From assembly GCA_009928855.1 (NCBI GenBank), contig SABV01000011.1, positions 1 through 32,830 on the forward strand: DNA of 32,830 bases, given 5' to 3'. Below the pieces are notes generated by a model. That model was not told the origin of the DNA, did no database searches, and worked only from the letters and a program-made list of their open reading frames with translations. Every line of letters begins with the position of its first letter. The first letter of the stretch is position 1. This DNA is from Erysipelotrichia bacterium (lineage in GTDB: Bacteria; Muiribacteriota; Ozemobacteria; Ozemobacterales; Ozemobacteraceae). The translations under genes and the position numbers were made by a program. Below are positions 27,691 through 32,539 of the stretch, in pieces.

Positions 27691-27840
27691 ATGGTTCACC
27701 CGGCAATGGTAGGTATTACAGAACTGATGACGGACGACAGTTTTTTGTGTTGGATGGAAGACCAGCAGGAAGACCTTCTTGAAAATCTGACCACTTACGA
27801 AATTTTTAATCTTTACCAGACAAAGCAGACTACTCACTGA
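27691..27840 (+). CDS. 49-residue small protein of unknown function
   Basis: A short open frame runs from an ATG at 27691 to a TGA at 27838-27840. GAGGAG lies at 27676-27681 about 9 bp before the ATG, and a rho-independent terminator begins 17 bp after the stop, so it has the full outline of a small gene. The product starts MVHPAMVGITELMTDD and is acidic in its middle (EDQQEDLLENL), with one cysteine and one tryptophan. It has no signal peptide or membrane helix. I recognise no family. It is convergent with the DtxR-type regulator gene and divergent from the cytidylate-kinase-like gene. Confidence 0.7.
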   Translation: MVHPAMVGITELMTDDSFLCWMEDQQEDLLENLTTYEIFNLYQTKQTTH

Positions 27841-27857
27841 GCTGAAGAGATATACAG

Positions 27858-27880
27858 ATCGGGTGTTTCCCGGTTTTTTT
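27858..27880 (+). terminator. rho-independent terminator of the 49-codon gene
   Basis: ATCGGG (27858-27863) pairs with CCCGGT (27869-27874, one G-T pair) around TGTTT, followed directly by a run of seven T (27874-27880). It abuts the end of the convergent DtxR-type gene and has no U-tract on the - strand. Confidence 0.75.
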
Positions 27881-28319
27881 ATTTTAGCCCGTTATTTTTT
27901 TTAAGAAACTCTTTGAACTCCGCCCGGGTTGCGTCAGTATTTTTTCTGATGAAAGCCAGGTAACTATTCATTCTTTCGATCGTGCACAGCGACACCCGGT
28001 GCTCCAGTCGGCAGGCTTCCTGTTGGGCAAATTCTTCCGGGAAGGCGAGTACATTTTCGAGAAAGTCGGCGAGAATTTCGTGATAGCGGTTAAGCGTCAG
28101 AATGGTTTTTTGCCCCTCTTCTGTCAGCGTGACCGGCCTGTATGACTGATAATGGATGAGCCCTTTTTCGGAAAGACGCTGCAAGGCATTGGTGACCGAC
28201 GAGCGTTTGCAGCCCATCCGGTCAGCGAGGTCGGAGGTTCTGACTGCTCCATATTCAAGCTGCAGTTCTGCTATCTGTTCAAGATACGATTCCAGGGCCC
28301 CGGAAACACGCTCTTTCAT
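27879..28319 (-). CDS. DtxR/MntR-family metal-dependent repressor
   Basis: A 146-residue transcription regulator of the DtxR family in the short form without an SH3 domain. A winged helix (residues about 6-60) includes VRTSDLADRMGCKRSSVTNALQRL as helix-turn-helix and YRPVTLTEEG as wing. The dimer/metal-binding part has YHEILADFL and EACRLEHRVS. Compared with MntR ligands, the position of Asp8 is Ser and that of Glu99 is Cys, as in the iron sensor DtxR (Cys102, Glu105, His106), so Fe(II) is the likelier effector. The ATG at 28319 follows GGGAGAT; an ATG six codons upstream overlaps feoB and has no site. It begins 2 bp after feoB, the last gene of the feo operon. It probably represses the feoA promoter at 30887-30915 when iron is plentiful. 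Confidence 0.93.
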   Translation of the reverse strand: MKERVSGALESYLEQIAELQLEYGAVRTSDLADRMGCKRSSVTNALQRLSEKGLIHYQSYRPVTLTEEGQKTILTLNRYHEILADFLENVLAFPEEFAQQEACRLEHRVSLCTIERMNSYLAFIRKNTDATRAEFKEFLKKNNGLK

Positions 28320-28321
28320 AA

Positions 28322-30610
28322 TTATCTCCCAGAGCAATCATTGCCCTTTGAAGGGCAAGAGTCGCAGCCTGCACACGCCTGACAACGTTTCCCGCTGATG
28401 GTGGCGATGAAGGTTCTTAGCAGATAGGCGCACGAGAGCAGCGAAACCACAATGATTATAGCACTTTCTATTATTGTGTTGCTGTCATTTTTGACTTGCA
28501 AAATTTCACCAATTTTGAGGGCGGCAAAGCTGACGCCATAGGCAACAAAGAAATATACCAGAAACAAAATTGCCGTGAAACGTGCCGAACCACTTTCGCG
28601 CCAGATAACACCCATTGTGGCTATACAAGGTATGTAGAGAAGTGTAAACAGCATGAAAACAAAGGCTGTGAGTTGCGTGAAGCCTGTTTTGCGCATAGCG
28701 TCGCCCAGGTTGTCAGAGTAGGGGAGGTATAAAACAGTCAATGTTGAGACTACAGACTCTTTGGCGAGGAACCCCGGAATAAGGGAGACAGTTTCGCGCC
28801 AGCTGAAGCCAAGAGGAGCCATTACAGGATGTATGAACTTGCCAATTCTCGCCATGTAACGGCCTTCCATTTCTTCTATGTCGCGGCGATGATTGAGTTC
28901 GGCAATTTTATTGCTTGTTTCTACGCTCATAGTTTGCGATTTCAGACTTGCCAGCTCTGTTTCATAGCTAAAACTTAATGGTATTTCGCGTGGAAACACA
29001 GACAAAACCCAGATTAGAATTGCCCCGGCCAGAATTACGGTGCCCGCCTTTTCGATAAAGTGCATGGCTTTTTCCTGGAGCATGTGGAAAACGCTTCTGG
29101 GCGTTGGGAGTCGGTAAGGGGGCATTTCCAGCAGAAAAGGAGAATTGTCGGTCGTTTTGAAGAGAAGACTTGTTATGTGCCCTACAAATACGATCACGAC
29201 CAGGTTTACAAAAAACAGCGAGAACATCCATAAACTGGGGTTTTGCGGAAAAAAAGTGCCGCACAAAAGCACCAGTATTGGTAGACGTGCAGCGCATGTT
29301 ACCATTGGTATGAGCAGCATCGTTAAAAGTCGTTGAAAGCGATTGTCGATAATTCTGGTTGCTAATACTGCCGGAACATTGCAACCGAGACCCATGATCA
29401 TCGGGATGAACGCGCGGCCATGCAGTCCAATGCTGTTCATCATTCGATCCATTATGAAGGCTGCTCGTGACATGTATCCCGAGTCTTCCAGCAGGGCGAT
29501 CCAGAAAAAAAGAATGAGAATGTTCGGTATAAAGATCAATACGCCGCCAACGCCGCTGACTATGCCATCTATCAGAAGGTCTTTGAGCATGCCGTCTTGC
29601 ATGCTGCCTTTTATTAAGGCGTTTAGCGCTTCGATCAGAGATTCCAGCCAACCCATAGGGATTTCGCCCACCGAAAATGTTGTCCAGAAAACGAATGCCA
29701 TCATCATGGCAAAAATTGGCAGCCCAAATAAGCGGTGTACCAGTAAAGAGTCGAGTTTTTCCTGCCATGGGGGAATGTTTTTACCGGGAATGCTTGCGCA
29801 GGCAGAAATCAGCGCTTCGATGCGTCTATAACGGTCTGTCGCCAGTTCGCAGGCCATATCTATTGATCTTAGTGGCTTTTCTCTGCCTTTGCTGAGCGTT
29901 TCGGCCAGGCGACTGCGGATTTCCTGTATTTTTATGTCTGATTCGAAGGGCTTAAGGCATATCAGCTCTCGTATTGCATTGTATCTCTGCGTTGGAGAGG
30001 CTTTTTCCCAGGTCGTGTTCTGTATGATTAATATTTCTTCTGCGGCTTTTTGCCATAATTCTGGTAGCGAAAGGGAATTTTGACGAAGTGTTCCGGCCGC
30101 ATAATCCGGGCGTCCGAGATGCTCTATCATAGAGCTGACACCTTTTCCGCTTCTTGCCACTGTTGGAAAAGCGCTGCTGCCAGTAAAAACAGAGAATTTT
30201 TGCAGATCTATGATTCCGCCGGAGGCAGAGAAAGAGTCGTAGCAGTTCAGGCTTATTACCGGGTTAACGCCAAGTTCGATCAACTGTGTCGTTAAAAACA
30301 GATTGCGCTCAAAATTGGCAATGTCGACAACATTGATGATTATGCCAGAAGCAGCTTCATCAAGAGTTTTTAATACGATTTCTTCTTCGGGGGTAGCCGG
30401 GGTGAGGGAGTAGGTTCCGGGGAGGTCGTTTATGATAAAACAACCTTGCTCTGTGCGTGTTGTTCCTTCAATTTTCTGAACAGTCACGCCCGGCCAGTTG
30501 CCGACACGGTGTCTCTCGCCCGTCATGGCGTTAAACAGACTTGTTTTGCCACTATTCGGGTTGCCGACCAGAAAAACATTGCGGGCGGCCTGCTGTGGGT
30601 TATTTGACAT
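28322..30610 (-). CDS. feoB: ferrous iron transporter FeoB with fused C-terminal cysteine-rich tail
   Basis: A 762-residue inner-membrane Fe(II) importer. The N-terminal G domain has G1 GNPNSGKT (residues 16-23), G2 GVTV (41-44), G3 DLPG (62-65) and G4 NCYD (122-125). A helical insert follows. The polytopic core has two Gate motifs, MGLGCNVPAVLATR and the later repeat around GFLAKESVVSTL. The last roughly 55 residues add one hydrophobic helix (TIIESAIIIVVSLLSCAYLL) and a cysteine tail, CQACAGCDSC, resembling the separate small FeoB-associated Cys-rich membrane proteins of Firmicutes. No feoC is present. It overlaps feoA by 11 bp and lies 2 bp before the regulator gene. Confidence 0.97.
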   Translation of the reverse strand: MSNNPQQAARNVFLVGNPNSGKTSLFNAMTGERHRVGNWPGVTVQKIEGTTRTEQGCFIINDLPGTYSLTPATPEEEIVLKTLDEAASGIIINVVDIANFERNLFLTTQLIELGVNPVISLNCYDSFSASGGIIDLQKFSVFTGSSAFPTVARSGKGVSSMIEHLGRPDYAAGTLRQNSLSLPELWQKAAEEILIIQNTTWEKASPTQRYNAIRELICLKPFESDIKIQEIRSRLAETLSKGREKPLRSIDMACELATDRYRRIEALISACASIPGKNIPPWQEKLDSLLVHRLFGLPIFAMMMAFVFWTTFSVGEIPMGWLESLIEALNALIKGSMQDGMLKDLLIDGIVSGVGGVLIFIPNILILFFWIALLEDSGYMSRAAFIMDRMMNSIGLHGRAFIPMIMGLGCNVPAVLATRIIDNRFQRLLTMLLIPMVTCAARLPILVLLCGTFFPQNPSLWMFSLFFVNLVVIVFVGHITSLLFKTTDNSPFLLEMPPYRLPTPRSVFHMLQEKAMHFIEKAGTVILAGAILIWVLSVFPREIPLSFSYETELASLKSQTMSVETSNKIAELNHRRDIEEMEGRYMARIGKFIHPVMAPLGFSWRETVSLIPGFLAKESVVSTLTVLYLPYSDNLGDAMRKTGFTQLTAFVFMLFTLLYIPCIATMGVIWRESGSARFTAILFLVYFFVAYGVSFAALKIGEILQVKNDSNTIIESAIIIVVSLLSCAYLLRTFIATISGKRCQACAGCDSCPSKGNDCSGR

Positions 30611-30851
30611 CCGGCTTTAACTCCACGTCTATTAAGATTGATTCTGAGCGTCTTAAGCCAACCTGATAACCACGAATTTCGAAGGTGGTCGGGTCTCCCA
30701 TTGGGGCTTTTTTTATCGCTCTTATCTGGGTGCCAGGTACAAAGCCCATGTCCATAAGGCGTTGTGATGTTGGCGATGCTGCGTCTATGTCGCGAATGGT
30801 CCCGGTGTGGCCCTCTGGCAGTTCCGCAAGACTGACTGTTGTTCTAACCAT
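30600..30851 (-). CDS. feoA: FeoA, SH3-like partner of FeoB
   Basis: An 83-residue cytoplasmic protein of the FeoA family, the usual size. It has the core pattern of an SH3-like barrel: GHTGTIRDID, QRLMDMGFVPGTQI (the family's 'RL..MGi.pG..i' signature) and GYQVGLRRSESILIDVE. FeoA assists Fe(II) uptake by binding the FeoB G domain. The start has GAGG about 8 bp upstream. Its stop overlaps the feoB start by 11 bp, so the two are translationally coupled. It is the first gene of the feoA-feoB-DtxR operon. Confidence 0.95.
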   Translation of the reverse strand: MVRTTVSLAELPEGHTGTIRDIDAASPTSQRLMDMGFVPGTQIRAIKKAPMGDPTTFEIRGYQVGLRRSESILIDVELKPDVK

Positions 30852-30864
30852 AGTTTTGCCTCAA

Positions 30865-30880
30865 ATTAGATTCGTCTAAT
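30865..30880. promoter_or_regulatory. candidate iron-repressor operator 1 (start-site proximal)
   Basis: ATTAGA-TTCG-TCTAAT is a perfect inverted repeat and contains TTAG-N6-CTAA. It overlaps the predicted transcription start of feoA. The repeat lies 19 bp from a similar box at 30884-30899, on the same face roughly two helical turns away. The encoded DtxR-type protein is the likely binder. Confidence 0.7.
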
Positions 30881-30883
30881 ATT

Positions 30884-30899
30884 GTTAGTATAGTCTAAC
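30884..30899. promoter_or_regulatory. candidate iron-repressor operator 2 (over -10)
   Basis: GTTAG-TATAGT-CTAAC has perfect 5-bp arms and again contains TTAG-N6-CTAA. It completely covers the feoA -10 hexamer (30892-30887), a placement expected of a repressor that blocks RNA polymerase. Confidence 0.7.
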
Positions 30900-30915
30900 T
30901 TTTTTGGAATGTCAA
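30887..30915 (-). promoter_or_regulatory. sigma70 promoter of the feoA-feoB-DtxR operon
   Basis: On the - strand TTGACA (30915-30910, perfect) and TATACT (30892-30887, 5 of 6) are 17 bp apart, the best promoter in the window. Transcription would start near 30880, about 29 nt before the feoA ATG. Confidence 0.88.
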
Positions 30916-30969
30916 GTTTTTCAGAGACGGCAAAACAGGTTTGTTTTTATCTTGCAAATTGTTGTTGCT

Positions 30970-30996
30970 GCGCTAATTGCGCTAATTACGCTAATT
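30970..30996. repeat. three tandem 9-bp units in the feoA upstream gap
   Basis: GCGCTAATT at 30970-30978, the same at 30979-30987 and ACGCTAATT at 30988-30996 form a near-perfect 3 x 9 bp tandem array. Each unit contains CTAA, the half-site of the feoA operators. It lies about 55 bp upstream of the -35 box and downstream of the Ycf46-like gene. It may be a simple slippage repeat. Confidence 0.8.
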
Positions 30997-31027
30997 GAAG
31001 ATGGCGTCGGGGGGTGTTATTGGGGGG

Positions 31028-32539
31028 TTATTTGTCTGATTTTGAGGCCGAAACGGCACGTTCGCTGGCCCAGTTTTTGATGAACTTTATCTGTTCTGAC
31101 ATGGTGCGTGAAAGCGGTACAGTGCTTCGAATGATTGTGTATAAGTCGTCCTGGGTCAGTTGAGAACCTCGGTGAAAAGCCTCTACAGTTGCGGCTTCTA
31201 CTACGTGCTCTATTTCAGCTCCATTCCAGAATTCAGTTGCCACACTCAGCAGTGGCATGTCAAAGTCTTGTATCTTGTTGCCACGCCTGGTTAAATGAAC
31301 TCGAAAAATCTGTTCACGTTCGCTGTCGTTTGGCAGGTCGATAAAAAATACCTGGTCAAAACGGCCTTTGCGTATGATTTCGGCCGGCAGCAAATCGATA
31401 CGGTTGGCGGTCGCGGCAACGAATACATCAGCTGATTTTTCCTGCATCCAGGTCAGAAACGCCGAGAAAATATGTGAGCCTGTTCCGCCGTCTTTGGCAG
31501 TGTTGCTGCTGATGCCGCCTTCTATTTCATCTATCCAGAGTATTGCGGGAGCGACCGACTCTATGCTTTTTATTGCGCGATAAAATGTGCCTTCTGGGCT
31601 TCCAAAGTTGCCTGAATAGACCTTATTCATGTCGAGTCTGAAAAGGGGAAGCCCCCACAGAGCGCTTATTGCTTTTACAGAGAGTGATTTCCCGCATCCT
31701 GAAATACCCATCATGAGAAGTCCTCGCGGTGGGCGGATTCCAGCCTGAGCGGCCTCGGGGGAAAAAAGGCGGCGCCTTTTTACAAGCCAGTCTTTGAGAT
31801 TCTCGAGCCCGCCAACGTCATCTAGAGACTCAATGCTGCGTACGTATTCAAGAACGCCGTCTTTGCGGGCGAGTTGTTCTTTTTCGTCGTGTAGCAGCGG
31901 CAAAATTTCTTTGTCGATTATTTTTCGACTCCAGCATGTTTTGTTCAGGGCATACTTCATTTCGGCAGCAGTAAAGCCTTTAAGAGAAATAACCGCTTGA
32001 TCCATTTCTTCGTGGGTGAATTCTACTTTTATGCCGCGTTTTGTTGCCGCCTGCATGTGTTCGTCAATTATGGCCGCTGTTTCGGAGGCATCAGGGAGCT
32101 GGTAGGTTATCAGGAGTATGTCTTTGCGGATTTCTACGGGCAGCATAAACTCAGAGCCGGTAAGTAATAAAAATCGATTCTGACCCCTGAAGGCGTAATG
32201 AATGTTTTTTATGCGCCGCTGGATCTCAACGTCGTTAAGACTGCCACCCAGGTCTTTAAAAACGAAAAAACCCGGTTTGTCATACTGCTGAATCTTGTCG
32301 AGCGCCTCGATGGCGGAAAGTTTGCTGCCAGAAGCGGCAGCTGTTTCAACCAGGCCCGTCTGGAGGTCCCAGGTGATGAAGCAGCCACGATTCTGAAATG
32401 CGTTCGCAAAAAACGCATTCAATGCCAGAATGGTTGAATCTTCTTCCCAGGTTTCTATGGCGATGATTGGGTAACCGCCGATCAGGGCCTCTTTTAAAGC
32501 TTTGAGAGCCGGCTGTCTTTGCGGGCTCGAACTGCTCAT
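31028..32539 (-). CDS. Ycf46-like AAA+ ATPase
   Basis: A 503-residue AAA+ protein. An N-terminal degenerate ATPase-like half (about 1-225, with GGYPIIAIETWEED and PGFFVFKDLGG) is followed by a complete FtsH/Cdc48-type AAA domain. Walker A is GISGCGKS at residues 278-285, Walker B ILWIDEIE at 333-340, sensor 1 ATANR at 376-380, RKGRFDQVFF around 390-399 with the arginine finger, and sensor 2-type GAEIEHVV at 440-447. This two-part layout is that of Ycf46 proteins, known from cyanobacteria and plastids and also many other bacteria; in cyanobacteria one has been linked to CO2/photosynthesis regulation. No transmembrane helix or protease domain is present. Its ATG overlaps the stop of the small upstream gene (ATGA). 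No obvious terminator follows the TAA at 31028. Confidence 0.93.
   Translation of the reverse strand: MSSSSPQRQPALKALKEALIGGYPIIAIETWEEDSTILALNAFFANAFQNRGCFITWDLQTGLVETAAASGSKLSAIEALDKIQQYDKPGFFVFKDLGGSLNDVEIQRRIKNIHYAFRGQNRFLLLTGSEFMLPVEIRKDILLITYQLPDASETAAIIDEHMQAATKRGIKVEFTHEEMDQAVISLKGFTAAEMKYALNKTCWSRKIIDKEILPLLHDEKEQLARKDGVLEYVRSIESLDDVGGLENLKDWLVKRRRLFSPEAAQAGIRPPRGLLMMGISGCGKSLSVKAISALWGLPLFRLDMNKVYSGNFGSPEGTFYRAIKSIESVAPAILWIDEIEGGISSNTAKDGGTGSHIFSAFLTWMQEKSADVFVAATANRIDLLPAEIIRKGRFDQVFFIDLPNDSEREQIFRVHLTRRGNKIQDFDMPLLSVATEFWNGAEIEHVVEAATVEAFHRGSQLTQDDLYTIIRSTVPLSRTMSEQIKFIKNWASERAVSASKSDK

Follow-up and report, generated by a model that had tools for sequence, protein, structure and literature searches.

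A predicted autoregulated DtxR-type operator on the feoA promoter of a Riflebacteria-like genome

How are feoA and feoB controlled in a bacterium whose feoA promoter carries two palindromes of the form TTAG-N6-CTAA, and is this motif an operator of its own kind or a known box in another arrangement? The DNA analysed here, a stretch of 32,830 nucleotides (the window), comes from a genome assembly of 4.47 Mb in 753 contigs (contamination 8.8%), whose closest named relatives are Candidatus Riflebacteria, including Rifleibacterium. By far the best reading of this sequence is a predicted autoregulated DtxR-type operator; the palindromes very probably serve a feoA-feoB-dtxR operon and are bound by the operon's own DtxR/MntR-type regulator.

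The feoA promoter and its operon

The promoter, the palindromes and the three genes lie on the same strand of the window:

30910..30915, minus strand: -35 box TTGACA, from the promoter scan; TTGAC is invariant in eight aligned promoters
30887..30892, minus strand: -10 box TATACT, from the promoter scan; equals positions 7-12 of operator 1
30885..30898, minus strand: operator 1, TTAGACTATACTAA (minus strand), an exact TTAG-N6-CTAA at about -18 to -5 that holds the -10 box
30866..30879, minus strand: operator 2, TTAGACGAATCTAA, an exact TTAG-N6-CTAA at about +2 to +15, 19 bp downstream of operator 1
30600..30851, minus strand: feoA, 83 aa; Pfam FeoA 1.7e-20
28322..30610, minus strand: feoB, 762 aa; TIGR00437 at 541 bits against a cut-off of 316
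27879..28319, minus strand: dtxR/mntR-like regulator gene, about 146 aa, two domains; Pfam Fe_dep_repress and Fe_dep_repr_C

The scan of 30700-31100 returned a single promoter, TTGACA and TATACT separated by 17 bp (30915..30887), which matches the consensus at 11 of 12 positions; shuffled sequence averages 0.5 sites at the scan's lower threshold. The first-pass annotation had described two palindromes 19 bp apart on a near-consensus promoter, one over the -10 box and one at the start site, and this description holds. The start site, near 30880, was placed by rule of thumb, and the operator positions relative to +1 follow from that placement. These two copies are the only exact ones in the window, and the host genome as a whole contains five. 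Three near-perfect 9-bp direct repeats, TTAGCGTAA-TTAGCGCAA-TTAGCGCAG, lie about 120-140 bp upstream of feoA (window 30968-30994, minus strand); the other five genomes of the genus show no such repeats in the 220 bp ahead of feoA.

As the annotation had also stated, the regulator gene ends the same operon. feoA shares 11 bp with feoB, and dtxR probably starts at the ATG at 28319, 2 bp past the feoB stop (the mechanically called ORF begins at a TTG at 28337 and encodes 152 aa). Of eight FeoB matches in the host genome, the one above the family cut-off is the operon's feoB. A 49-aa ORF (window 27691-27840, plus strand) is convergent with the regulator gene and is followed by a GC hairpin and a T run, identified by eye.

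The mechanism that we propose begins with sufficient cytoplasmic Fe2+, at which each of the two 14-bp palindromes would be occupied by one metal-loaded regulator dimer. With operator 1 over the -10 box and operator 2 predicted to lie over the first transcribed bases, RNA polymerase would be shut out, and uptake and regulator would both be turned down. At low iron the dimers would leave and the strong promoter would fire. The dimers may also aid each other's binding and thereby sharpen the response, because the 19-bp register is that reported for MntR on mneP. The fewest assumptions are needed if repression is steric and feeds back on the regulator. The negative feedback on both uptake and regulator that had been predicted thus finds support in silico, from a promoter-blocking operator of the operon's own regulator, and presupposes that dtxR has no internal promoter.

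Conservation of the motif and of the pair

Our family set comprised 24 genomes including the host, 22 of them with a FeoA match (none in G016 and G017); a second, weaker FeoA of G015, which has no site, was excluded from the count. In 20 of the 22, TTAG-N6-CTAA lies no more than 150 bp upstream of feoA; these genomes, like those behind the genus and g8 counts below, are related and so are not independent events. Each of the sixteen other spacers (0-5 and 7-16 bp) was found upstream of feoA in at most 2 of the 22. Across 500 Markov-sampled sets the number of genomes with the motif averaged 0.118 and never exceeded 2, so that chance is excluded as the source of this conservation. The two misses are G013, with a one-mismatch site only, and G010; in the latter, dtxR stands ahead of feoA and the motif begins 38 bp before the dtxR match.

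The position of the motif was also compared with gene order. Where dtxR comes first in the cluster (G010, G030) the motif is upstream of dtxR; where it is located elsewhere (G021) the motif is upstream of feoAB. The order in G009 is dtxR and then feoA, with the sole exact site between them, so this dtxR is not obviously under the operator and feedback on the regulator is not universal. All five genomes of the phylum that have feoA and no regulator homologue (E 1e-3) lack the motif within 300 bp upstream of feoA; one of the five has a site elsewhere, within its feoB match (L219).

Operator 1 is kept at the same place in 6/6 genomes of the genus and 2/2 of g8, and an alignment of these eight promoters shows no change in TTGAC, in either arm of operator 1 or in the TTAG of operator 2, whereas most of the remaining columns vary. 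A -35 box with five or six of the six TTGACA matches stands exactly 17 bp from operator position 7 in 12 of the 20 genomes with an exact site. G022 makes a thirteenth, falling outside the 150-bp window and seen in longer upstream sequence, and the remaining 7 have no good -35 box at this distance. A second copy with at most one mismatch at exactly 19 bp is present in 13 of the 22 family genomes, namely all six of the genus, both of g8, the single one of g10 and all four of g11, degenerate second copies included; base composition predicts 0.036 genomes per offset, with a maximum of 2 in 2000 draws. The g11 promoters carry operator triplets with steps of 22-24 and 19 bp. Given that nine of the 22 are without a second copy at 19 bp and seven of the 20 without a good -35 box, the pair and the exact promoter fit are both dispensable.

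A genome scan for motif pairs had been proposed as a check. Exact pairs with gaps of 0-30 bp occupy 18 places in the 24 whole family genomes, 11 of them at feoA, against a single place for the reversed control. Of the seven other places, G014 has one ahead of a DUF3793-flavodoxin gene pair (15-bp step), G018 two ahead of a small secreted protein and G005 one ahead of a Flp pilin; of the last three, one is within an ORF, one precedes a methyltransferase-like gene and one is distant from every ORF start. A relaxed search for 19-bp pairs, allowing two mismatches, found 39 places in 22 genomes, where the reversed pattern found 91, and was not used to define the regulon. In the phylum of G052, for which one genome was searched, no pair was found.

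Two of these contexts are recorded as observations in their own right. In G018 (L186, contig C229, 3017-3068) three operators in the 19-bp register lie directly upstream of a Cys/Gly/His repeat protein of about 100 aa, apparently secreted and with no Pfam match, a possible metal-binding peptide. In G005 (L160, contig C78, 3592-3624) a 19-bp operator pair lies about 39 bp upstream of the Flp-type pilin gene.

Sites elsewhere in the host and in other phyla

The annotation had offered the motif as a means of finding the rest of the regulon, which proved apt for relatives and for a second phylum and not for the host, where exact sites mark this operon only. None of the other three exact host sites is at a recognised iron gene: two fall within ORFs, and the third precedes by 56 bp a protein without a Pfam match. 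As far as exact sites go, the switch is therefore local in the host, and a large host regulon was not seen with them. The six genomes of the genus hold 53 exact sites, 12 at feoA, 16 inside ORFs of at least 80 aa and 25 between ORFs. With 3-24 sites per genome as compared with 77-171 for the reversed pattern, the motif is rare. When the contexts of the 41 sites away from feoA were read by eye, no conserved iron gene was recognised. A flavoprotein-like gene lies 198 bp downstream of one site (L166), an anaerobic ribonucleotide-reductase-like gene about 480-490 bp downstream of another (L164), and several sites of G005 resemble a repeated element of the TTAGAGCC type.

The motif was then considered in named genomes at 58 loci, of which 20 Riflebacteria-like ones largely repeat the family genomes. 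It occurs 41-89 bp upstream of the dtxR match in 20 of 21 loci of Algoriphagus/Cyclobacteriaceae, and upstream of a dtxR or feoB match in 3 of 7 loci of Verrucomicrobiota. Among loci with a related regulator, a nearby site was found in 0 of 8 from Actinobacteria and 0 of 2 from other Bacteroidota (Cytophaga, Dysgonomonas). In addition to the 58, seven loci from other phyla (L060-L064, L067, L068) were examined, and four of them have the motif ahead of a dtxR or feoB match.

A broader search covered 198 genomes of a second phylum, that of G055, for two motifs 0-30 bp apart. It returned 74 places in 49 genomes, and every place was classified. At 39 of them a gene for FeoA, FeoB, DtxR, flavodoxin or DUF3793 follows, as first or second gene, no more than 350 bp downstream; 20 are otherwise intergenic and 15 are inside ORFs. 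Flavodoxin genes are typical iron-starvation genes. The flavodoxin and DUF3793 classes are in part after the fact, since they were added once 15 of the 74 places had been viewed, and their queries were proteins of the Riflebacteria genome G014, in which both genes follow a pair; feo and dtxR by themselves account for 17 of the 74, all outside family f34. In the same genomes the reversed pattern gave 24 places, none at feo, dtxR, flavodoxin or DUF3793 genes (39/74 versus 0/24, Fisher p 5e-7, with places that are not independent and some of the 74 having longer flanks than the controls). Of the 39, 17 are one orthologous DUF3793-flavodoxin promoter of genus g46 within f34, a family with 29 places; outside f34, 22 of 45 places are at these genes, representing 20 distinct promoters by our own count. 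Seven places show the 19-bp register, six of them at feo, dtxR, flavodoxin or DUF3793 genes.

In the 17 g46 loci (for example L234, L240 and L269) the two operators are spaced 43-44 bp apart and flank a TTGACA-like box. At another locus of the second phylum (L261, G101:C103, 2110-2142) a 19-bp pair lies 31 bp upstream of a 707-aa ORF with a lipoprotein-like N terminus.

The suggestion that the motif is a lineage-specific operator does not survive these results: it is ruled out by the sites in Bacteroidota, in Verrucomicrobiota and at iron genes of the second phylum. We tentatively entertain a wider reading, on a balance tipping slightly against it, in which TTAG-N6-CTAA would be the elementary one-dimer word of DtxR/MntR regulators, tiled differently by lineage (interleaved at 5 bp in actinobacterial IdeR; at 19, or about 21-24 and 43-44 bp, in Riflebacteria and the second phylum) and marking an iron regulon of feoAB, flavodoxin, DUF3793 and regulator genes in both of the latter. 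If so, the uncharacterised DUF3793 family would be an iron-starvation protein. The pairs tie DUF3793, a family of unknown function, to iron genes, and offer a simple DNA signature for iron control in mostly uncultured bacteria.

The regulator, its signal and related systems

The regulator matches PF01325 (7.8e-14) and PF02742 (2.2e-14) and thus has the DtxR/IdeR N-terminal helix-turn-helix and dimerisation domains; PF01325 has one match in the host genome, this protein. The third, SH3-like domain of DtxR/IdeR is absent, as the 152-aa ORF ends soon after the two domains with no further C-terminal Pfam domain. By sequence the nearest solved structures are those of MntR (phmmer to 1on1, 142 aa, query residues 14-148), and the two-domain layout and size match MntR (about 142 residues). 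The protein nevertheless missed the NCBIfam MntR equivalog cut-offs, scoring 84, 83 and 79 bits against 153, 138 and 350. All 28 aligned regulators share Cys109, Glu112 and His113. Cys109 aligns with MntR Glu99 and Ser17 with MntR Asp8, so that both of these metal-site residues are replaced, and MntR Tyr22, an interdimer contact, corresponds to Ala31. The MntR residue numbering used for this alignment is in part that of PMC4805248. Of the two sulfur ligands of DtxR, Met10 and Cys102, the cysteine would correspond to Cys109 (equated via Glu99) and the Met10 position to Ser17 (via Asp8); position 17 is Ser or Thr in 20 family rows and Asp in the 8 rows that are outside the family or from G010.

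Could the palindromes belong to something else? That they arose by chance or form an RNA hairpin is hardly credible: palindromes are common, yet the Markov sampling, the spacer scan and the statistics of the 19-bp register contradict this explanation, and operator 1, upstream of the predicted start site, would not be transcribed. Ownership by Fur or another regulator is very improbable. Fur controls feo in other bacteria and is predicted to do so in delta-proteobacteria (PMC545781, in part); in the host genome no Fur match was found by a search that was positive in 13 of 14 control genomes, and the motif is a DtxR half-box that occurs at dtxR genes. More weight attaches to the view that operator and regulator are as proposed while the metal sensed is Mn2+, or Mn2+ and Fe2+, with Feo importing manganese or both, although we still consider it unlikely. 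In its favour, the best solved relatives are MntR, the family is without Met10, and PgMntR, which has a Cys ligand, is described in the available part of PMC4805248 as binding both metals and its own upstream region, and not the feoB1 promoter. Against it, Cys and Met ligands raise Fe2+ selectivity and Cys is the iron-type ligand (PMC10317159), and the paired motif precedes flavodoxin genes in the second phylum. The cysteine, the feo target and the flavodoxin targets elsewhere favour iron, not manganese, as the probable signal.

A different doubt concerns operator 2, which may be a weak helper without cooperativity, so that operator 1 alone would matter. We regard this as a substantial possibility, if a somewhat doubtful one. 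It accords with the nine family genomes that have no recognisable second site at 19 bp, with the one-dimer binding reported in PMC8464063, and with the Ala at the position of Tyr22, a residue needed for MntR cooperativity (PMC11275975, in part). It is opposed by the persistence of the 19-bp step in all six genus genomes, both g8 genomes, g10 and all four g11 genomes, even where the second copy is degenerate. The register makes cooperativity plausible, though the Tyr22 contact of MntR is replaced by Ala31 here.

The preferred reading, an operator of the operon's own DtxR-type regulator, can be set beside known systems. Among the titles and abstract openings listed by searches of the open-licence PMC literature, none described this operator in Riflebacteria or these pairs; a description may exist in subscription journals, for example in a 2015 comparative study of archaeal DtxR regulons.

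In the available text of PMC8464063, the 19-bp IdeR box contains four CCTAA repeats, with dimers on repeats 1 and 3 and on repeats 2 and 4, and the 14-bp consensus TTAGGNNNNCCTAA is proposed for one-dimer sites. TTAG-N6-CTAA is therefore this known half unit. The claim that its N6 spacing departs from the DtxR box fails accordingly, and an operator thought distinct from that box turns out to be its half, rearranged. The DtxR/IdeR iron box TTAGGTTAGSCTAACCTAA (PMC8464063 and PMC10317159, both in part) shares the outer TTAG...CTAA, its single-dimer unit TTAGGNNNNCCTAA likewise having six bases between, and in repressed genes overlaps the start site and/or the -10 region, as here. It differs in that its units are interleaved at a 5-bp offset and in its fifth base, a G where both host sites have A (minus strand). 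The 19-bp interleaved box is absent at the host promoter, which instead carries two separate 14-bp units. What is unusual is the layout, with half-boxes side by side at 19 bp, the MntR register.

Two further systems share parts of the arrangement. P. gingivalis PgMntR (PMC4805248, in part) is likewise a DtxR-family protein; it has a Cys ligand, binds both Mn and Fe, and was tested on its own promoter region; in contrast to the host regulator, it has two C-terminal FeoA domains, and the feoB1 promoter is reported there as not bound. For methanogens, it is proposed that Fe(II) binding leads a DtxR homologue to turn down FeoAB (PMC8516115), a proposal that is archaeal and proteomics-based and, in the portion available, does not describe an operator.

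A parallel for the register is MntR (PMC11275975, a preprint, in part). Its dimers occupy 18-bp sites with 1 bp between them on B. subtilis mneP, and E. coli mntS is equally spaced; 18 bp plus 1 bp gives, by our arithmetic, 19 bp centre to centre. MntR is also a two-domain protein of similar size. However, its metal site has Glu99 and Asp8 where the host regulator has Cys and Ser, and at mneP it activates an exporter, whereas repression of uptake is predicted here. The feoA promoter thus joins DtxR-type half-boxes with the register of MntR, and raises the question of whether a Cys-type, presumably iron-directed regulator shares the tandem register of the manganese regulator for cooperative binding.
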